A DNA stretch of 64,000 nucleotides from Verrucomicrobiales bacterium (GTDB lineage Bacteria; Verrucomicrobiota; Verrucomicrobiia; Verrucomicrobiales; DEV007), in assembly GCA_002698785.1 (NCBI GenBank), contig PAAG01000007.1, forward strand, positions 1 to 64,000. The letters are read 5' to 3'. The notes beneath the pieces are model-generated. The model did not search any database. It had not been told where the DNA came from and saw nothing but the letters and a program-made list of their open reading frames with translations. The translations under genes were made by a program, and so were the position numbers. Positions 9,196-26,164 of the stretch are shown here, in pieces. The first letter of the stretch is position 1. Every line of letters begins with the position of its first letter.

Positions 9196-12100
9196 CTAGC
9201 TGGAATGTCTTTCTCCGCCTCGGCCACCGAGATCTTCGAAGATGGTGAAAACCGCGGGAATCAATAAGAGGATCACGGCCGTGGAGACCAGGGTTCCAAT
9301 GCCCAGAGAAATGGCCATTGGGACAAGGAAAAGGGCCTGAGTGGAAGTTTCGAAAATCATGGGGCCGAGCCCCAGGAAAGTTGTGATGGCAGTGAGCACG
9401 ATGGGCCGGAAGCGTCGAAGGGCAGACATCCTCGTCACGGTTTCTGGTTCGTCTCCCCGGTCGAGATAGCGATTTCGGGTAACGGCGAGAACGAAGGCTC
9501 CGTTTACGACCATTCCACACAGGGCGATCATTCCAAAGACGCTGAATATACTGAGGTCGAATCCGAGGAGTTCGTGTCCGAAAATGGCACCGGCGATACT
9601 CCATGGAATTGTCAGTAACACAATGCCCGCCTGTACGTAACTCTGCAGGATGGCGGCCATTATAACGTAGATTGCAGCGATAGATCCGATGAGCCCCCAC
9701 ATGAGCTCACGCATGGCGTCGCGTTCTTCGCGTTTCTCTCCCTCGAAGCTGTAGCGCAGGCCGGGATAGCGTTTCAGGATTTCGGGAAGTTCGTTTTTGG
9801 AGAATGCAGAGAGCACGCGATTGCCAGTGGTGATGTCGGCGATGACGTTTGCGGTTACGTTTACGACTCGACCTCCGTCTACGCGCTCGATCCTGACAGG
9901 TGCACTTGTCTCGGTGATTTCAGCGGCTTCGGCAATGGGGATCTCACCTCCGTTGGGGCTGCGAATGAGGAGTTGCTCGAGCCCGCTCATCGAGCGTCGG
10001 TCTTCTTCGGGAAGGCGCACCATCACTCGGACCTCCTGTCGGTCGCGTGGCTGGCGCAGGGCTTCGGCTCCGTAGAAAGAGTGGCGAATTTGCTGGCCCA
10101 ACTCTCGAGCCGTGATGCCGAGGCTGCGACCGGCAGGTTTGATTTCAAAACCCAATTGTGGCATTTCTCGGCCAAAACTTTTTCTCACGTCGGCGACTCC
10201 TGGATATCGAGATACCGCATCGCCTACCTCGGTGGCGGCATGACGAAGTGTTTCGATTTCAGGATGGGCGAGTTGTATGTCGATCTCGGCTTCGCCTCCG
10301 GGCCCAAAGAGCCAGTCGAAAAAGAGGGACTCGATATCAGGGATGGTCCCAATTTCTTCGCGCCAGAGGTTCACGAACTCCGAGCCTGTGATACTGCGCT
10401 GACTTTGTGGGACCAGGACAATACTACTTTCGCCTTCGTTGCTGGATCCTTCGGCGACTTCGGCAAAGTATCCTACGAGAATGTCTTCCTCTCCTGTTCT
10501 CGCAAGAGCCCGTTCGGCTGCTTCCTGGACCTGGAAGACGACTTCGCGAGTGCGGTCAACCGGTGTTCCCGAGGGAAGTTCTATCTCGGCTTGGATAAAA
10601 TCGGTTTCAATGGCGGGTTGAAAGATGAAATCAATTCGTCCGCTGGAAATCCACGCTAACAGAACCATTAATGCTGCGACAAAGAATGTAAGCGTGAGAT
10701 AGCGAAATCGGATCGCTGTGTCGAGTATCGGGCGATAGAGATTTTCCATCGCATTGTCGAGGCGCGTGCGGAATCGAGTTTGTGCGGCATCGAATCGAGA
10801 GAAGAGAGTTTTCTTTCCTTCCTTCGCGTGGGAAAAAGCGAGGTGAGAGGGGAGAATAAGTAAACACTCGACCAATGATACGGTGAAAACTGCGATCACG
10901 ATGGCGGGGAGGATTTCGAAAAACTGTCCGATTTCTCCGGGCACAAAAAGGAGGGGGAGGAAAGCGATGATATTTGTCGAAACAGCAAAGAGCACGGGGA
11001 CAGTCATCTGTTTTGCTCCGGCAATCGCGGCGATTCTACGAGGCATTCCCTGCGAGATCTTGTGGAAGATGTCCTCACCTACGACGACCGCATCGTCGAC
11101 GACAATCCCGAGTGTAATGATGAACCCGAAGAGGGAGATCATATTGATGCTGGCTCCCATGACTGGCATCAACACTAACGAGCCCAGAATCGAAACGGGA
11201 ATTCCGATGGCAGTCCAGAGCGCGACGCGAAGTTCAAGAAAGAATCCAAGAGCAATGAGAACGAGGATGAGACCCGCTGCTCCGTTCTTCAGGAGAAGCG
11301 TGACCCGTTCCTTATAATCGTCGGAGCGGTCTCGGGAAAGGCGAATGTTTACGGAAGGAGGCAGGTTGGGCCGCTGCTTTTTTATGAAGCGTTTCACCGC
11401 CTCTGCGACATCAAGTGGGGCCTGCGTTTCGGAGCTGTAGACGGCAATGGAAACAGCGCGCTGGCTGTTGAAATAGTTTTCTCGTTCTGCTTCTTCGAAA
11501 CCATCTTCGATAGTGGCGATGTCAGAGAGGCGAACGGTGGACCCATCGGGCGTAGAGAGGATAGGGACCTCGGCAAACTCGCTGGCAAAATCACGACGCT
11601 CGGTGGTTCGCAGAAGAATGTCGCCGCTGGGAGTGCGCATCGTTCCAGCGGGAACGTCCTGTGCCGCATCGTCGATCGCTTCGGCGATGTCGTCCAGGGT
11701 GAGGTTGAGAGCTCGCAGTCGCTCTTGTGGAACCTCGACAAGGATTTCGGGACGGCGAACACCCCGGAGTTGGACCAACGCGATTCCGGGTTCAGCGAGA
11801 AGACCGTCTTCCAAGGTTCGTGCGTAGTCGATGAGGGTTTGCTCGTCGAGATCTCCGTAGACAGATATTCGCATGACCTCTCTTCGTCTTCCGGCTCCGA
11901 GAGTGATCACTGGAGGCTCTACTTCGTCAGGGAATAGGCTAACCCGTTGTACGGCCGCAGTAATCTCCTGGAGCGCCCTGTCGCGGTTGTAACCGGGAAT
12001 GACTTCGATTTCGACGGAACCATTTCCTTCGCGTGCGACGGATTCAATTCGGCGAACAAGTTCCATCCCTCGAATTTCGGATTCAATGGGCAGGATGACT

Positions 12101-12303
12101 GAGCGCTCGACTTCTTCCGGGCTGGCTCCCCGGTAGTCCATATCGACCTCGACAGTGTTTAGTTCGTAAACCGGGTAAATTTCCTGACGGATTCCTCGAG
12201 CGGTAAGGACACCCGCAATCACAATGGTGATCATCAGGAGATTTGCCGCCACGTCGTTTCGGGCGAACCAGGAGATCAGTCCCTTTGATTCGCCTTCGAT
12301 CAT
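9196..12303 (-). CDS. RND efflux transporter, inner-membrane pump
   Basis: A 1035-residue AcrB/ACR family protein, the normal length. It has TM1 near the N-terminus (NLLMITIVIAGVLTARGI), two large periplasmic loops, and the proton-relay helix motif GIVVDDAVVVGEDIF in TM4. The second half repeats the topology. Driven by proton influx, it would expel drugs, metals or lipophilic compounds through the adaptor and outer-membrane channel encoded just upstream. The start overlaps the adaptor gene by 4 nt. The substrate cannot be told; the VDDAVVVGED motif favours the multidrug-like branch over the heavy-metal branch. Confidence 0.93.
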   Translation of the reverse strand: MIEGESKGLISWFARNDVAANLLMITIVIAGVLTARGIRQEIYPVYELNTVEVDMDYRGASPEEVERSVILPIESEIRGMELVRRIESVAREGNGSVEIEVIPGYNRDRALQEITAAVQRVSLFPDEVEPPVITLGAGRRREVMRISVYGDLDEQTLIDYARTLEDGLLAEPGIALVQLRGVRRPEILVEVPQERLRALNLTLDDIAEAIDDAAQDVPAGTMRTPSGDILLRTTERRDFASEFAEVPILSTPDGSTVRLSDIATIEDGFEEAERENYFNSQRAVSIAVYSSETQAPLDVAEAVKRFIKKQRPNLPPSVNIRLSRDRSDDYKERVTLLLKNGAAGLILVLIALGFFLELRVALWTAIGIPVSILGSLVLMPVMGASINMISLFGFIITLGIVVDDAVVVGEDIFHKISQGMPRRIAAIAGAKQMTVPVLFAVSTNIIAFLPLLFVPGEIGQFFEILPAIVIAVFTVSLVECLLILPSHLAFSHAKEGKKTLFSRFDAAQTRFRTRLDNAMENLYRPILDTAIRFRYLTLTFFVAALMVLLAWISSGRIDFIFQPAIETDFIQAEIELPSGTPVDRTREVVFQVQEAAERALARTGEEDILVGYFAEVAEGSSNEGESSIVLVPQSQRSITGSEFVNLWREEIGTIPDIESLFFDWLFGPGGEAEIDIQLAHPEIETLRHAATEVGDAVSRYPGVADVRKSFGREMPQLGFEIKPAGRSLGITARELGQQIRHSFYGAEALRQPRDRQEVRVMVRLPEEDRRSMSGLEQLLIRSPNGGEIPIAEAAEITETSAPVRIERVDGGRVVNVTANVIADITTGNRVLSAFSKNELPEILKRYPGLRYSFEGEKREERDAMRELMWGLIGSIAAIYVIMAAILQSYVQAGIVLLTIPWSIAGAIFGHELLGFDLSIFSVFGMIALCGMVVNGAFVLAVTRNRYLDRGDEPETVTRMSALRRFRPIVLTAITTFLGLGPMIFETSTQALFLVPMAISLGIGTLVSTAVILLLIPAVFTIFEDLGGRGGERHSS

Positions 12304-13496
12304 GAGTCAGTGGATTTTTTCTCCTGCTCCAGAGGCTGCGGGTTTACCTCCATACCGGGAGGGGCTGCTTTCAGTTCGCTGATGATGAGGCGCTCACCTT
12401 CTTCGCGAATGTCAGGGACCAACACGGTATTCGGTCGTGTCCACAGGACTTCGGGTTCGGCAATGCGAATGCGATTGTCCGGGCCTACCATCCAGAGACG
12501 ATTTCCTTCGCGGAGAGCAACTCGAGGGATCGACAGAACTCCTTCGAGTCGACCTGCTTCGATTTCTACCCTGACATAGCTTCCGAGAAGGAGCGGGGGG
12601 CGGTCTTCCGACAGCAGGCCCAAAGGGTCTTCCACTGCGACAAGTATTCGTGCCATGCGCCCTGTTTCTTCGAGGTTTGGTAGAAGGCGAACGACTTTTC
12701 CTTCCCACGGTTCGATTTCACCATTTCCTGTGTCGAGATGGATTTCTGCGTGGGCTCCGTCTTCCCCATTCTCCGGCAGTCGGATTCGTTTCAGGTCCGC
12801 CATCGGAAGGGTAGCCTGGACCCAGAAGGTGTCTGTCCCGACGAGGCGGCAGATATCGTCACCTGCGTCGAGTAGTTGCCCGATCTCGACGTTTTCCTCG
12901 ATAACCATTCCGTTGAAGGGTGCCATGACTTCGGTCCGAGAAAGGTCTAGTTCGGCCCTGTCGATCGAGCTTTGTGCCTTGTCGATCATGGCTTGAGTTC
13001 TGCGAAGCTGAGGCTCCCTGAGTGCGAGTGAAGGATCGACGTCGGAATCGGGAAGATCGGCGCGGAGTTGTTCCCATTCGCGCTGTGCGATTTTCTGACG
13101 ACCCTGCTCCAGCTCGAATTCGAATTCTGCTTCTGTCAGGTCCGATTTTCGTTCGATGATGTCGAGCTTGTAGTCAGATGGATCAATCTTTGCGAGGAGG
13201 TCGCCTTCTTTGAATTTTCCGCCTGGCTCAAGCGCTTCGTGCTGTTCTACTACGCGCCCTCCTACTTGTGGGCGCATGGTCACCTCACGTGCTGGAATTA
13301 CTGTGCCCCACGCGTCGACCTCGATCTTTTCGTGGGTGGGAACAAGTTCGGTGACACGGACGATTTTTGCTGCCTGTTTCTCCTCCTCGGGTTCCGTCTT
13401 TGGAGCTGTCTTGATAAGAATAAAAGAGATGAAGCCGGCGCCACCGAGCACGAGGAGTGCTACGAGGGAAGTAATGGCGATGCGGATTCGTTTCAT
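12300..13496 (-). CDS. RND efflux periplasmic adaptor (membrane fusion protein)
   Basis: A 398-residue HlyD/AcrA-type adaptor. It has an N-terminal anchor (IAITSLVALLVLGGAGFISFILI), a lipoyl-like domain with PAREVTMRPQVGGRVVEQ near residue 70, a coiled-coil hairpin at about 110-190, the second lipoyl half (VMAPFNGMVIEENVEIGQ) and beta-barrel domains. It bridges the inner-membrane pump and outer-membrane channel. It lies between the channel gene (33 nt upstream) and the pump gene (4-nt overlap), giving a three-gene operon. Confidence 0.92.
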   Translation of the reverse strand: MKRIRIAITSLVALLVLGGAGFISFILIKTAPKTEPEEEKQAAKIVRVTELVPTHEKIEVDAWGTVIPAREVTMRPQVGGRVVEQHEALEPGGKFKEGDLLAKIDPSDYKLDIIERKSDLTEAEFEFELEQGRQKIAQREWEQLRADLPDSDVDPSLALREPQLRRTQAMIDKAQSSIDRAELDLSRTEVMAPFNGMVIEENVEIGQLLDAGDDICRLVGTDTFWVQATLPMADLKRIRLPENGEDGAHAEIHLDTGNGEIEPWEGKVVRLLPNLEETGRMARILVAVEDPLGLLSEDRPPLLLGSYVRVEIEAGRLEGVLSIPRVALREGNRLWMVGPDNRIRIAEPEVLWTRPNTVLVPDIREEGERLIISELKAAPPGMEVNPQPLEQEKKSTDS

Positions 13497-13529: not shown

Positions 13530-14951
13530 TCAAGGCGTCTGTTTCGACATGGGACCTCCAATGGCTCGGTGCAAAGCGATACGCGCGCTGAGTAGTTCGC
13601 GACGGCTCTGAAGGATGTCTCTTTCCAGTTGCTGGACTCGAGCGAGTGCATCGAGGACGGGAAGGTAGTCTGTTGCTCCGAGAGTGTAGCGATTGCGGGT
13701 CTCTGTGAGAAGTTTACGAGCGACTGTTAATTGCGATAGCTGGCGACGAAGGCGTTCTTCGGTTTTCCTTTCTCGGGATAGAGCCGTTTCTGTTTCTCGA
13801 ATCGCGTCGAGGTAGAGTGCGGTGTAGATGTCGATTTCTTCGCGGACGCGTGATTCCCGTCGTTCTACTTCGGCCCGGCGGCGGCCTCCGTCGAGGAGTG
13901 GGCCAACAACTCCTGCGACCGCGTCTCCAATGAGGTTTTCAGGCGTCGGAGATCCTGACAATGCAGCCGATCCGCCTATTGTGAAGCGAGGAAGGCGATC
14001 GGCAATTGCTTCGCCAACCTCGTGGTCGAGGGCGACGATTCTTGCTTGCTGCGCTCGAAGGTCGGGGCGGTTGCGGAGCAAATCACAGGGCACTCCGGGA
14101 TCGGGGAGGGAAGGGGGCGACTGTACGGTGGAAAGAGTGGAAAGCTTCCCTGTGCCCGGAACTTTTCCGGTCAACGCTTCGAGGGCAAGAGCGAGTTCTT
14201 CTACCCGAGCTTCGATATCGGGGATGAGTGTCTCGGTAGCTCGAAGTTGTTGCTGTTGCTGCAAGACATCTACAGAGGAGCCTTGGCCTTGGCCAAAGCG
14301 AAGCCTGGTGAGGTCGAGCAGGGTGCGGTTGACTTCTATCTGCTCATGGGTGAGGCGGAGTTGCCCCCTCTGTTCCACTAGGGTGAACCAGGTTTCTGCG
14401 ACTGATGCGGAGAGAAAAAGTCGAGCCGCGAGCCAATCATCCACCGCGGCTACGGCTTCCTGTTCTCGAGCAGAACGCCCTGACCGTATTCGGCCCCAGA
14501 AATCGATTTCCCAGTCGAGGAGAAATCCTAAAGAGGAACTCTGTGTGCTACTTCCGTCGATTCCCCAGTTCTGGCGAAAATCTCCGGAGGCATCGACTTG
14601 AGGGAACAGGGTGGATCCTGCCTGAACAATAAGAGCGTTTGCCTGATCGATTCGTCTTCCGACGGCTCGGACATCAGGATTTCTTCGAAGGGACTCTTCT
14701 ACCAATTGGGAGAGATACTGATCGCCAAACGTAGTGTACCAGGGCTTCCAATTTGATCGCCGTGCTCCTGCCGAGGGAATTGCATTTGCAAAGGGACGAT
14801 CTCCCGAACCGGACACTAGGGGAGTTGGCGAAACTTCAACGTCATGTACACATCCCTGCAACACGCCAAAGAATGCTATGACCACGAATGGGAATAGATA
14901 CCTCTGGAGAGAGTTGTGAGTTTGAGGTGTTACGCTTCGTCCGGTGCTCAC
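13530..14951 (-). CDS. RND efflux outer-membrane lipoprotein channel, NodT/TolC type
   Basis: A 473-residue outer-membrane factor. An N-terminal hydrophobic stretch ends in a lipobox (GVLQGC), so it is probably a lipoprotein. Two outer-membrane-efflux repeats follow, with long helices and the features NPDVRAVGRRIDQANA and LRNRPDLRAQQARI. The start is GTG 14951, because an in-frame stop lies two codons upstream and no ATG precedes the signal sequence. It is the first gene of the efflux operon. Confidence 0.9.
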   Translation of the reverse strand: MSTGRSVTPQTHNSLQRYLFPFVVIAFFGVLQGCVHDVEVSPTPLVSGSGDRPFANAIPSAGARRSNWKPWYTTFGDQYLSQLVEESLRRNPDVRAVGRRIDQANALIVQAGSTLFPQVDASGDFRQNWGIDGSSTQSSSLGFLLDWEIDFWGRIRSGRSAREQEAVAAVDDWLAARLFLSASVAETWFTLVEQRGQLRLTHEQIEVNRTLLDLTRLRFGQGQGSSVDVLQQQQQLRATETLIPDIEARVEELALALEALTGKVPGTGKLSTLSTVQSPPSLPDPGVPCDLLRNRPDLRAQQARIVALDHEVGEAIADRLPRFTIGGSAALSGSPTPENLIGDAVAGVVGPLLDGGRRRAEVERRESRVREEIDIYTALYLDAIRETETALSRERKTEERLRRQLSQLTVARKLLTETRNRYTLGATDYLPVLDALARVQQLERDILQSRRELLSARIALHRAIGGPMSKQTP

Positions 14952-21950: not shown

Positions 21951-22847
21951 ATGGAGCAGGTAAATCATATCTTGATTGTGGACGATTCGGAGGTCGACTT
22001 CGAAGCCATCGTCCGTGAGATCAAGCGAGCCGGCATTGAGGCTGTGACTTGCCGCTGCCAGGACTTAAATAATTTCAATGAGCTCGTGGAGTCTCAGGCC
22101 TGGGATGCCATTATCTGCGACCATTTTCTCCCCGGATTCTCTTCGGAAGATGTACTGAACGAGTTGAAAAAATCTTCTGCGGCCGGGACGCCTTTCCTCA
22201 TTGTGTCCGGGATCATTGATCCGGTATCGGCAGGGGAAATCATTCGACACGGTGCATCCTGCTATGTTTACAAAGACGATCTGGAGCGCCTTGGACCATC
22301 GTTGATTCGAGAATTGCGAGTGTCAGAACTAATTCGGGCAAACTCGAAATTGCGCGAGCAGCTCAGCCTTCAGGATGAGATACTCAGTGAAGCGCAGCGG
22401 GAGATTCACTCTCTCCGTATGGAGTTGCATCGAAAGACAGAGAGCCCACGCGTAAAGAACGGTCTACGTGTGCTTGTTGTGGATGATGAGCAATGGATCG
22501 GCGATCTTCTGGGTAGGACGCTCGAACAAATGGGGCACACACCACATGTGCTCTATGACGCCTGTGAGGCAAAAAAATCGCTCAGCGAAAACAAGTTCGA
22601 TCTTGTCGTGTCGGATCGCGAGATGCCTCGAATGAACGGGGATGAGTTGGCCGTCATGGTGAGAGAAGAGTCTCCTGACACGAAATTTATGATGGTGACC
22701 GCCTATGGCGAGCTAATGACAGAAGCTGACGAAGTTCCCGAAGGAGTCGACCTTGTGATTCCCAAACCGATCTCGACTACGGTGCTCACGGAATCGTTGC
22801 TGGCGTTGTTTCCCGCTGAGCCGGATATCATCGCCATAGCGGGGTAG
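21951..22847 (+). CDS. Dual receiver-domain protein (REC-coil-REC)
   Basis: A 298-residue protein with two CheY-like receiver domains and no output domain. REC1 (about 1-125) has the acidic pair D11-D12 and phospho-acceptor Asp57 (IICDHFLPG). A coiled coil follows at about 125-165. REC2 (about 170-290) has VVDDE and acceptor Asp222 (VVSDREMPRMNG), with the Lys in IPKPIS. The last 40 residues closely resemble the C-terminal receiver of the next gene's kinase. It probably acts as a phosphate relay or sink within the four-gene cluster up to 26164. Confidence 0.88.
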   Translation: MEQVNHILIVDDSEVDFEAIVREIKRAGIEAVTCRCQDLNNFNELVESQAWDAIICDHFLPGFSSEDVLNELKKSSAAGTPFLIVSGIIDPVSAGEIIRHGASCYVYKDDLERLGPSLIRELRVSELIRANSKLREQLSLQDEILSEAQREIHSLRMELHRKTESPRVKNGLRVLVVDDEQWIGDLLGRTLEQMGHTPHVLYDACEAKKSLSENKFDLVVSDREMPRMNGDELAVMVREESPDTKFMMVTAYGELMTEADEVPEGVDLVIPKPISTTVLTESLLALFPAEPDIIAIAG

Positions 22848-22981
22848 GCGTGAGTCGGCGCCCTGATTTGGAGTGAAAACTTTGGATTGGCGCGTGTCTC
22901 GGCGTGCCAATTTTTTGTAGTACACAGAGCCGAGTGAGACTCGGCAACAATAGAAATTTTCAGATTCCCAAGCCCTTTTTA

Positions 22982-24577
22982 ATGACCAACTCCATCCATA
23001 TCCTGATCATTGAGGATTCGGAGGACGACATTGAGATGTTTCTGCGGAGACTCTCGAAAGATGGGTTTGATGTTTCTTTCAGGCATGTTTCAAAACCAAA
23101 TGATCTAGAAGAGGCATTTCAGGAGGGAGGATGGGACGTCATCCTTTGTGACTATTTTCTTCCCGGGGTCACTTGGCAGGAAGTTCTGCAGAGCTGGGCC
23201 ATTAGCTTTTCGAGAAATTGTCCGCTCATTCTCACCTCGGGAATCACGGATTTCGATTCTGCATTAGAGGCGATGCATCAGGGGGCCTCTGATTTTATCT
23301 CGAAAGCGGACCTCTCGCGTCTCTCTCCGGTGATTCGGAGAGAGTTGGAGAAGACAGAGATTCGTCGTCAAAAAGAGAGAGCGGAAGCTGAACTGAAGGA
23401 TTCGAACCTAAAGCTCAAGTTGGCGCTGAAGTCTTTGAAGAACATTCAGGACCAAATGATCGCAGTGGAGAGGTTTCGGGCTCTGGGCGAGATGGCCAGT
23501 GGGATTGCGCATGACTTCAATAATGCGCTTATGATCCTCCAGGGCTCCGTTGAGGAGATTGAATCTCAAAGAGCAGCACCTCAGGAGATCGTCAGGAAAA
23601 TGCGAACGCAGATCGACGATGCTGCCTCTGTCGTGAGACGCCTGAAAGATTTTTACCGGACAAGCCCGGCCTCGGAGGAGACCGCAGTGGACATCGATGC
23701 AGTGCTGCAGGATGTGAAGGAATTTACCAAGCCCAAGTGGGAAAAGACTGTGGCTGAAGGAGGGGAGTCCGTTGTAGTCGAGATTGGAGAAACCTCCGAA
23801 AGTTTTGTCTGGGCCGATCCATCCAAGCTTAGAGAAATCATCACGAATCTTATTTTCAATTCCTGCGATGCGATGCAGGAAACAGCAGGTAAGATTACTC
23901 TGTCCACGCGATCCGCTTCGGGATTTGTCGAGATACGCGTGGAGGATACAGGCCCTGGTATGACCCCCGAAGTGAAAGCAAGGTGTCTGGAACCCCTTTA
24001 TTCTACCAAAGGACCAGATGGCACCGGATTGGGACTCTCGATCGTAAGCGCTGTAGTACAGTCCTTTGGAGGAAAGGTGCTGATTGAGAGTGAACCCGGA
24101 GAAGGAACTGTAGTCAGTCTCTATCTCCGAAGAGCTGAGATTTCCGAATTACCTGAGCCATCCTGCCATCGCAGTATTTCAGAGCTGAGACCAGTTCGCG
24201 TTCTTGTTGTCGATGACGAGCCCGTAATTTCTCGATTGCTCACAAAGCAGTTGAGCAGTCTCGGGCATAAGGCATCTTCCCTAACGAACCCGCTGGATGT
24301 GACCAAGGTAATGGAAACTGAGTGGATAGATCTCGTTCTGACCGATCGCTCAATGCCGGAAATGAGTGGAGATAATCTTGCCAAGCTGGTCAAAGCGTTG
24401 AATCCTGAAACGAAAGTGCTCATGGCAACTGGTTTTGGTGATTTGATGATCGCAAAGGGCGAGACTCCCGAGGGAGTGGATTTGATTGTGCCGAAGCCAA
24501 TTTCGTTGGAGGTTATTGTCGATTCTTTGGAGGCTCTCTTTCCGGTTTGTCCTGACTCAGTAGCTCTAAGCGGATAG
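22982..24577 (+). CDS. Hybrid histidine kinase (REC-HisKA-HATPase-REC)
   Basis: A soluble 531-residue hybrid kinase with no membrane segment. The N-terminal receiver has acceptor Asp57 (VILCDYFLPG). A coiled coil at about 125-160 leads to an NtrB-like H box with His177 (GIAHDFNNAL). The ATP-binding domain has an N box (LIFNSCDAM), G1 (VEDTGPGM) and G2 (GTGLGLSIV). The C-terminal receiver has Asp455 (VLTDRSMPEMSG). The frame opens at GTG 22904; ATG 22982 fits the domain start. Input probably comes through the first receiver from another kinase, perhaps the ethylene-receptor-like kinase encoded next. Confidence 0.92.
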   Translation: MTNSIHILIIEDSEDDIEMFLRRLSKDGFDVSFRHVSKPNDLEEAFQEGGWDVILCDYFLPGVTWQEVLQSWAISFSRNCPLILTSGITDFDSALEAMHQGASDFISKADLSRLSPVIRRELEKTEIRRQKERAEAELKDSNLKLKLALKSLKNIQDQMIAVERFRALGEMASGIAHDFNNALMILQGSVEEIESQRAAPQEIVRKMRTQIDDAASVVRRLKDFYRTSPASEETAVDIDAVLQDVKEFTKPKWEKTVAEGGESVVVEIGETSESFVWADPSKLREIITNLIFNSCDAMQETAGKITLSTRSASGFVEIRVEDTGPGMTPEVKARCLEPLYSTKGPDGTGLGLSIVSAVVQSFGGKVLIESEPGEGTVVSLYLRRAEISELPEPSCHRSISELRPVRVLVVDDEPVISRLLTKQLSSLGHKASSLTNPLDVTKVMETEWIDLVLTDRSMPEMSGDNLAKLVKALNPETKVLMATGFGDLMIAKGETPEGVDLIVPKPISLEVIVDSLEALFPVCPDSVALSG

Positions 24578-24598
24578 GAGAAAAGCAAAGCATTGGTC

Positions 24599-25729
24599 AT
24601 GGAATTTTTTCGCAAACTCTTCGACACCGCTGATTTCCCTGAACGTTGGCACTGTGGTTCCTGGGAGCTCGGGCATGGTTGGCTCCACATCATCTCCGAT
24701 ACCGCAATTTTCGGTGCCTATGTGGCCATCCCCATCGCTCTTCTTCTCGTGGCTTGGCAGAGCAACCGGGGGATATTGAAGGAACCTCTCACTCTCCTCT
24801 TCTCTGCTTTTATTCTCTCCTGTGGAATCGGTCATTTGATTGAGGCATCGATTTTCTGGCACCCTTGGTATCGATTGTCCGGTGTCGTTAAGGCAATCAC
24901 GGCGGTCGTCTCGTGGGCCACCTTTGTTGCCATAGCCCGGAACTTACCGACTGCTTTGCGTGTTCCGGATATGATCCAACAGAATCGACAGTTGCGGAAT
25001 TCGGTGAAGGAGCAGGCGGCCATTGCTGATGAGTTGTCACGAAGTAATGAAGACTTGAACCAGTTTGCCTTTGTCGCTTCTCACGATATGAAAGCTCCGC
25101 TTCGATCTATTCGGAATCTAGCCAACTGGATTTCCGAAGATTCGGGTGACTTGCTTCCAGAAGAGAGCAAGCGACACTTGGACCAGATGCATTCTCGGAT
25201 CGAGCGTCTCGATAACTTGCTGGAGGATTTGTTAACCTATTCAAGAGCTGGTCAAAACCTGAGTGATCCTGAGGAAGTGGACGTGGAAAAATATGTTCTT
25301 CGAATCTTTCAAGATCTGGAAACGATTTCCGGGGACATCGAGCTGAAGACAGCTGGGAGTCTCACTCCTGTTTTCACCTGGGGAGTGCCTCTGGATCAGA
25401 TCCTGCGTAATCTGATTGGGAATGCGGTAAAGCACCACAAGACCAAAAAGGGAGAGGTGATTGTTAGAGGTAGGAAAGTTCCCAGTGGCCTGTGGATTAC
25501 GGTGGAGGATGACGGCCCGGGGATTGAAGAAAAATATTTCGATAGAATTTTCAAAATGTTCCAAACCCTCCAATCTAAAGATGATGTCGAGGGGTCGGGG
25601 ATAGGATTGGCAGTAGTGAAAAAACTGGTAGAGCGTCTCGGTGGTGAAATCGAACTGGAGTCGGAGTTTGGTGAAGGGTCGAAATTTCGAATCTTTATTC
25701 CACATCAGCAATCACCCGTGCTAGCCTAG
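24599..25729 (+). CDS. Histidine kinase with ethylene-receptor-like membrane domain
   Basis: A 376-residue membrane kinase. Three N-terminal helices (about 33-55, 63-86 and 94-115) match the plant ETR1 ethylene-binding domain. Asp34, Tyr41, Ile44-Pro45, Ile72, Cys75 and His79 fall at the spacing of ETR1 Asp25, Tyr32, Ile35-Pro36, Ile62, Cys65 and His69, where Cys and His bind copper(I). A coiled coil joins it to a phytochrome-type kinase core: H box His162 (FAFVASHDMKAPLRS), N box around LIGNAVKHH, G1 (VEDDGPGI) and G2 (GSGIGLAVV). There is no GAF domain, unlike ETR1. ATG 24599 is preferred to TTG 24593. It lies 6 nt before a small response-regulator gene. Ethylene or copper sensing is inferred from conserved residues. 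Confidence 0.9.
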   Translation: MEFFRKLFDTADFPERWHCGSWELGHGWLHIISDTAIFGAYVAIPIALLLVAWQSNRGILKEPLTLLFSAFILSCGIGHLIEASIFWHPWYRLSGVVKAITAVVSWATFVAIARNLPTALRVPDMIQQNRQLRNSVKEQAAIADELSRSNEDLNQFAFVASHDMKAPLRSIRNLANWISEDSGDLLPEESKRHLDQMHSRIERLDNLLEDLLTYSRAGQNLSDPEEVDVEKYVLRIFQDLETISGDIELKTAGSLTPVFTWGVPLDQILRNLIGNAVKHHKTKKGEVIVRGRKVPSGLWITVEDDGPGIEEKYFDRIFKMFQTLQSKDDVEGSGIGLAVVKKLVERLGGEIELESEFGEGSKFRIFIPHQQSPVLA

Positions 25730-25735
25730 CTGCCT

Positions 25736-26164
25736 ATGCCAACCAATCCCGTTTCTATTTTACTTATCGACGACGACGATATCGAAGCCGAAATGGTCGA
25801 ACGGTCCTTGAGAAAGGCCCGAATTGCTAACGACGTCTACAGAGCTCGAGATGGAGAGCAGGGACTAGAGCTGCTTCGCGGAGAAAACGGCAGAACTGTT
25901 CCCAACCCGATTATGGTTCTGCTCGACCTGAATATGCCGCGCATGAGCGGTCTGGAATTCCTCGATATTATCAGGCAAGACGAGAAGCTGAAGGGTACGG
26001 TTGTTTTCGTTCTTACCACTTCAAACGACGAAAGGGACAAGATCGAGGCCTACAGTCGGTTTGTCTCTGGCTACATTGTAAAGTCGAGCGCGGGCCCACA
26101 GTTCACGCAGCTCATTGATATGATCGAACACTTCTGGAAGGTAGTGGAATTTCCAGAGGCGTAA
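25736..26164 (+). CDS. Single-domain response regulator, Rcp1-like
   Basis: A 142-residue stand-alone receiver of the phytochrome-partner (Rcp1) type: an acidic cluster D12-D15, acceptor Asp64 (VLLDLNMPRMSG), the Thr switch (VLTTSN) and Lys in YIVKSS. There is no DNA-binding domain, so it passes phosphate or acts by protein contact. It directly follows the ethylene-receptor-like kinase, whose core is also of the phytochrome type, so they are a likely cognate pair. Confidence 0.92.
   Translation: MPTNPVSILLIDDDDIEAEMVERSLRKARIANDVYRARDGEQGLELLRGENGRTVPNPIMVLLDLNMPRMSGLEFLDIIRQDEKLKGTVVFVLTTSNDERDKIEAYSRFVSGYIVKSSAGPQFTQLIDMIEHFWKVVEFPEA

Follow-up and report, generated by a model that had tools for sequence, protein, structure and literature searches.

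A histidine kinase with an ethylene-binding-type membrane domain, inherited together with a hybrid kinase and a receiver-only regulator, in a Verrucomicrobiales genome

We analyzed a 64-kb stretch of DNA from a Verrucomicrobiales bacterium, hereafter the window, centered on a gene for a histidine kinase with an N-terminal domain of the ethylene-receptor type (ETR1_N). The genes and residues on which the analysis relies are as follows.

21951..22847, + strand: REC-REC protein, a paralogue of the hybrid kinase lacking the kinase core (Pfam, sequence comparison)
22904..24577, + strand: REC-HisKA-HATPase-REC hybrid kinase, upstream of the ETR1_N kinase (Pfam; the part compared with relatives begins at 22982)
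24599..25729, + strand: ETR1_N histidine kinase of 376 amino acids, with an ethylene-binding-type membrane domain, a helical stalk, HisKA and HATPase_c (Pfam; model mean pLDDT 92)
24653..24655, + strand: Cys19, N-terminal of the Pfam match, kept in 102 of 103 distinct domains (domain alignment)
24674..24961, + strand: ETR1_N domain, residues 26-121, with three predicted helices (Pfam; structure model)
24698..24700, + strand: Asp34, aligned with ETR1 Asp25 (residue check; ETR1 numbering as given in PMC12643061)
24821..24823, + strand: Cys75, aligned with ETR1 Cys65 (same sources)
24833..24835, + strand: His79, aligned with ETR1 His69 (same sources)
24890..24892, + strand: Lys98 in helix 3, a lysine in 97 of 103 distinct domains (domain alignment)
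25082..25084, + strand: His162, expected phospho-acceptor of HisKA, in ASHDMKAP (Pfam and motif)
25736..26164, + strand: Rcp1-like single-receiver response regulator of 142 amino acids, with Asp64 as expected phospho-acceptor (Pfam, PDB matches)

The kinase reading frame opens with ATG, an alternative TTG start lying two codons upstream at 24593. Its match to the Pfam ETR1_N profile (E 1.7e-28, 99.2 bits against a cut-off of 27) bears out the ethylene-receptor N-terminal domain claimed in a preliminary description of this DNA, and is followed by HisKA (residues 153-219) and HATPase_c (residues 264-370). A Pfam scan of the whole protein returned no GAF, PAS, phytochrome or photoreceptor domain, so that the sensor is joined straight to the kinase, as had been described; nor is there a built-in C-terminal receiver, the receiver being encoded by a separate gene. 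All seven ethylene-binding residues, reportedly identified by Wang et al. 2006, are present exactly where they had been placed: D34, Y41, I44, P45, I72, C75 and H79. Ethylene binding is reported to require seven residues (PMC11819568). When 25 to 27 residues are allowed between Pro and Ile, the seven-residue motif occurs a single time in the six frames of the window (127,996 codon positions) and never in 200,000 shuffles of kinase residues 1-121. Its spacing had been equated with that of plant ETR1, which holds for the four residues from Cys to His, whereas Asp and Cys are 41 residues apart against 40 in ETR1 (Asp25, Cys65 and His69 in PMC12643061), one residue having been added.

A structure model built from an alignment of 49 sequences (mean pLDDT 92, pTM 0.72) predicts helices at residues 24-55, 63-84 and 91-120 and a helical stalk at 123-185, that is, three N-terminal helices, as in the ETR1_N family, which would presumably be inserted in the membrane. 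In the model, Asp34 falls within the first third of helix 1 and Lys98 close to the beginning of helix 3; Cys75 and His79 sit near the end of helix 2. An up-down-up bundle would set D34, C75/H79 and K98 near one side, helix positions that would fit the earlier expectation of Asp, Cys and His coming together. A single-sequence search at E 10 found no solved structure of an ETR1_N domain, and the two weak matches of a profile search (E 0.017 and 0.71), a synthetic protein and a hormone receptor, were set aside. Foldseek returned 347 matches to the kinase model at E 0.001 or better; the best 50 of these are histidine kinases and related proteins, with none described as an ethylene receptor, and the match to 8g3a_D (BceAB-S complex), aligned over 347 columns, may include membrane helices. 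By sequence, the best solved match of the kinase is the kinase domain of the bacteriophytochrome RpBphP2 (8f71, 107 bits), followed by HK853 entries at about 89-91 bits; the kinase core, previously called phytochrome-type, thus resembles phytochrome kinases best, but not exclusively.

Relatives were sought across 84,980 species genomes by means of a pair of degenerate peptide patterns; with tblastn confirmation, this led to 555 relatives, of which the best 80 were kept. By record title, the majority of these best 80 of 555 belong to Verrucomicrobiota or Planctomycetota, and a few to Polyangia, Bacteroidota, Hydrogenedentota, Acidobacteria and cyanobacteria, the best named match among them being locus L015 of a Verrucomicrobiales genome. 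Within the order of the window the domain has a patchy distribution, being found in 40 of 288 genomes (38 over the cut-off) and in 6 of the 33 genomes of the genus. Matches to plasmid records (18 with an ETR1_N domain, all under 60% identity) were not retained as a sign of plasmid origin. A single-protein query, which reaches close relatives only, found no relative in viral contigs; 149 of 50,697 phage records matched, the five listed being unannotated records with 23.5-27.4% identity over 82-98% of the query, and these were taken for general kinase similarity rather than a sign of viral origin.

The residue alignment comprised 128 full domains, 103 of them distinct, six partial matches in L079, L083 and L090 being left out. 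In these three loci the domain is spread over two open frames, and some copies may be inactive or hold sequencing errors. All seven residues are kept in 93 of the 103 distinct domains and changed in the other 10. Cys75 and His79 are present in all 103, a constancy that, like that of Asp34 and Ile72, is partly built in because the search patterns contain these four residues. The patterns contain none of Cys19, Tyr41, Ile44, Pro45 and Lys98. Cys19 is absent from one domain only, that of L007, which also differs at Tyr41 and Pro45, and a cysteine was seen by eye at the same position in AzoEtr1, the ethylene receptor of Azospirillum brasilense. The L007/L129 protein, from the same genus as the window (Y to F, P to S and C19 to S), is a naturally occurring variant in which ethylene binding may have been lost.

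Layouts were assigned with home-made kinase and receiver profiles, taking the best kinase match per protein. The 103 domains divide into 30 joined directly to a kinase, 28 with a kinase and a receiver, 19 with a linker or PAS, 15 without a recognized kinase and 11 cut by the end of the locus. The direct layout comprises 29 full kinases, the one in the window included, and L057, a short frame; L048 and L077, with about 156-170 residues between domain and kinase, fall outside this class. With 29 of 103 domains placed directly before a full kinase, the sensor-kinase layout of the window protein is common, and the absence of GAF, correctly noted before, is a frequent trait of bacterial members rather than a special one. 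Among other layouts, a protein recorded from an uncultured Gimesia (L045, 4794-6335) has ETR1_N fused to HDOD, a kinase-free output. In L017, L042 and L060, a histidine kinase gene starts within 150 nt of a kinase-less ETR1_N protein; such a next-gene kinase accompanies 3 of the 13 proteins classed as kinase-less by first kinase-profile match, and these are possibly receptors split in two.

The regulator gene starts at 25736, 6 nt after the kinase gene, and Pfam recognizes Response_reg alone in its product, with no output domain. Its PDB matches include 5ic5 and 6xvu, the top two, which bear general names, as well as the bacteriophytochrome-regulator chain 8avv, RcpB (1k66) and Rcp1 (1jlk and 1i3c), upholding the earlier identification of an Rcp1-like partner at this distance. 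Lacking an output domain, the regulator would have to bind a target or relay phosphate, the hybrid kinase being a possible recipient or donor. Among loci that extend 420 nt or more beyond the gene, 14 of 29 direct kinases and 5 of 17 linker/PAS kinases are directly followed by a receiver-only gene, as are none of the 27 kinases with a receiver and none of the 14 kinase-less proteins. A separate regulator thus tends to stand in for the missing built-in receiver, a pattern expected if the regulator is the phosphate acceptor; about half of the direct kinases (15/29) have no receiver-only regulator directly downstream. Over 19 pairs, evolutionary distances correlate at r 0.79 between kinase and regulator (permutation p 2e-4), at 0.50 between sensor and kinase and at 0.36 between sensor and regulator, noise being added by some upstream frame residues in the regulator sequences. 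These correlations suggest that kinase and regulator coevolve more tightly than the sensor does. In the receiver, the conserved Lys is followed by Ser in the window (26081-26086) and in the regulators of L015, L115, L117 and L058 (Thr in L043); most other regulators of the alignment, inspected by eye, have Pro at this place.

In a tree of 31 proteins, which takes in L048 and L077, L015 is the first to group with the window protein (support 96/88); L115 and L117 join next (100/99), and L058 of a planctomycete after them (100/99). The kinases of L115, L015 and L117, the three closest, share 56% identity with that of the window over 368-373 residues, and the regulators downstream of them share 64-65% with its regulator. 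The gene immediately before the kinase encodes a REC-HK-REC hybrid in the window as well as in L015 and L115. When twelve genes of the window were compared with six loci, matches were found for the hybrid and its REC-REC paralogue, the ETR1_N kinase and the regulator, and for none of the other eight.

This linkage was extended to the 288 genomes of the order, with 5 or 14 candidates scored per genome, so that orthologues may have been missed. Hybrid orthologues were found in G077, G028, G006 and G044 in addition to the genome of the window (444-474 bits, 44-46% identity, the next match at 306 bits), and regulator orthologues in G028, G044 and G077 in addition to the same genome (188-199 bits, the next at 111 bits). 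Both occur together in 4 of the 288 genomes, from three genera, the hybrid being found in one further genome, G006; with the hybrid in 5, the regulator in 4 and both in 4, Fisher's test gives p 1.8e-8, relatedness being ignored. The orthologous ETR1_N kinase was found in the same four genomes as hybrid and regulator, in a survey of the 44 places in the order that hold the domain, three of which (G100, G219 and G225) were left out. What is new here is this co-inherited module of hybrid, ETR1_N kinase and regulator.

Two genomes depart from the arrangement. G077 carries the hybrid on a different contig, and the gene immediately before its kinase encodes a transposase (DDE_Tnp_1, DUF4096). In G006, the gene after the hybrid codes for a kinase that lacks ETR1_N, and no regulator orthologue comes after that kinase. 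This neighbor is 37% identical to the window kinase over 213 amino acids (E 1.5e-41), against 27-34% for five other kinases, and is likely its orthologue, judging from sequence; its lack of ETR1_N suggests that the circuit can do without the ethylene domain. G006 has a single-REC gene in place of the REC-REC protein. In the window, this last protein matches both receivers of the hybrid (37% and 47%), as if it were a duplicate whose middle has been lost.

Several known systems offer points of comparison. The nearest is AzoEtr1, which binds ethylene and whose gene is followed by that of a receiver-only regulator, Azorr-etr1 (PMC11819568). It resembles the window kinase by an N-terminal domain with all seven residues, a histidine kinase and the regulator directly downstream; it differs by a PAS domain between sensor and kinase, which the window kinase lacks. 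Azorr-etr1, described as 135 amino acids long and encoded with a slight overlap with the AzoEtr1 gene (PMC11819568), shares only about 22% identity with the window regulator (18 bits), and the upstream genes given in the same source include no hybrid kinase, unlike those of the window. We placed the AzoEtr1 gene in an Azospirillum Sp7 plasmid record by similarity, its 525-aa frame agreeing with the length in PMC11819568; the protein scores 132 bits against Pfam ETR1_N, and the window domain matches the Sp7 record with 37.5% identity over 94% of its length. SynEtr1 of Synechocystis (slr1212, UirS) likewise combines an ethylene-binding domain, a histidine kinase and a response-regulator partner, but has a cyanobacteriochrome light-sensing domain (PMC6682694), whereas Pfam finds no photoreceptor domain in the window protein; phosphorylated slr1213 is reported to enhance CsiR1 and slr1214 transcription (PMC6682694).

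Plant ETR1 shares with the window protein the Asp, Cys and His of the copper site (PMC12643061), the three helices and a kinase region, and differs by its GAF domain and built-in receiver (PMC12643061), neither of which the window protein has. Bacteriophytochrome-Rcp1 pairs are comparable through the matches of the regulator to RcpB, Rcp1 and chain 8avv, and also through the next best regulator of the source genome (42%), which lies beside a PAS_2-GAF-PHY kinase of phytochrome layout; the window sensor differs in being ETR1_N, with no phytochrome photosensor. Genes for predicted ethylene-binding-type domains with varied outputs have been reported from many proteobacteria and cyanobacteria (PMC7700396). 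Similar proteins had been said to be known in cyanobacteria, which SynEtr1 substantiates, but proven receptors are not confined there, AzoEtr1 being described from Azospirillum (PMC11819568). A search of titles and abstract starts of open-licence papers found no literature on such receptors in Verrucomicrobiota or Planctomycetota.

We propose, with a probability of about 0.6, that the kinase is a membrane-bound protein of the bacterial ethylene-receptor kind, in which a putative Cu(I)/ethylene site drives a relay from His162 to Asp64, with the hybrid in the same pathway. The three helices would hold Cu(I) via Asp34, Cys75 and His79, probably helped by Lys98 and Cys19, and ethylene, or a similar small unsaturated gas, would bind at the copper. 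The signal would then travel down helix 3 and the adjoining stalk into the kinase, where a change would alter both autophosphorylation at His162 and the transfer of phosphate to Asp64 in the neighboring receiver-only regulator; the upstream REC-HK-REC hybrid would act in the same pathway. The analysis itself shows the domain family, the residues, the predicted helices, the catalytic motifs, the linkage of the genes and their co-inheritance, whereas copper, ethylene, the direction of the signal, phosphotransfer and the part of the hybrid are inferred. Copper holding, ethylene binding and the His162 to Asp64 route are expected by analogy with AzoEtr1 and SynEtr1, as ethylene binding by the same domain is reported for the first 130 residues of AzoEtr1 (PMC11819568) and for residues 1-130 of SynEtr1 (PMC6682694). 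Copper P-type ATPases were considered as support and rejected: the source genome has three over the cut-off, but 14 of 14 control genomes also match, 13 of them over the cut-off.

The kept copper ligands would equally suit a domain that binds copper yet senses the copper level, redox state or another ligand (oxygen, carbon monoxide, other alkenes), ethylene binding being incidental, a reading that we consider doubtful though worth keeping in view. In its favor, the open reading frame lists of window positions 10000-40000, read by eye, hold nothing related to ethylene or plants, and an RND-type efflux pair is encoded on the opposite strand, about 7 kb upstream of the module.

9196-12303, strand opposite to the module: AcrB-family pump (profile match)
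12300-13496, strand opposite to the module: membrane-fusion protein matching HlyD_3 and a CusB/HlyD barrel model (profile match)

Cus pumps of the same kind export copper. The pump, however, finds its best match in the general AcrB family and does not adjoin the module, the residues kept extend beyond the copper ligands to Y41, I44, P45 and I72, with the full set of seven in most domains, and two bacterial members are reported to bind ethylene (PMC11819568, PMC6682694). A TolC-like reading frame, noted by eye, follows the efflux pair at 13530-14951.

That the domain is a relic or a structural membrane anchor, the kinase being under control of hybrid and regulator with no ligand, is improbable: the G006 kinase without ETR1_N and the domains with changed binding residues, that of L007 in the same genus included, would fit it, but Cys19, the seven residues and Lys98 are intact in the window protein and its three closest orthologues, whose domain shares 65-69% identity with that of the window, compared with 49-51% over the remaining residues, unlike a pattern of decay.

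The ethylene-receptor reading, if true, would carry functional ethylene sensing into Verrucomicrobiota, distant from both organisms in which such sensing has been demonstrated, a cyanobacterium and a plant-associated proteobacterium. Until AzoEtr1, direct evidence of any specific microbial ethylene receptor is described as scarce (PMC11819568); the same source already reports a receptor kinase whose gene adjoins that of a receiver-only regulator. The window kinase is not a rarity but one more good representative of a sensor type already known, and the added value lies in the co-inherited module and the conserved Cys19: the hybrid is a concrete candidate partner, and Cys19 a candidate addition to the seven known residues. 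The window protein is also among the simplest layouts (sensor, kinase and regulator), and since no light or PAS domain lies in between, the ethylene input could be studied alone. More tentatively, and with the odds against it, the hybrid, the ETR1_N kinase and the Rcp1-like regulator might form one dedicated three-protein phosphorelay, an undescribed bacterial ethylene circuit whose ethylene domain is a plug-in input that one lineage has lost or never gained, with C19 as an unnoticed fourth element of the binding site.

The source genome encodes a second ETR1_N protein (L128, 4954-7362, G000:C22, and L158), an 803-aa frame with PAS, HisKA, HATPase and a receiver. About 13 kb from it lie genes for a heme oxygenase, a PAS_2-GAF-PHY kinase and an Rcp1-like regulator.
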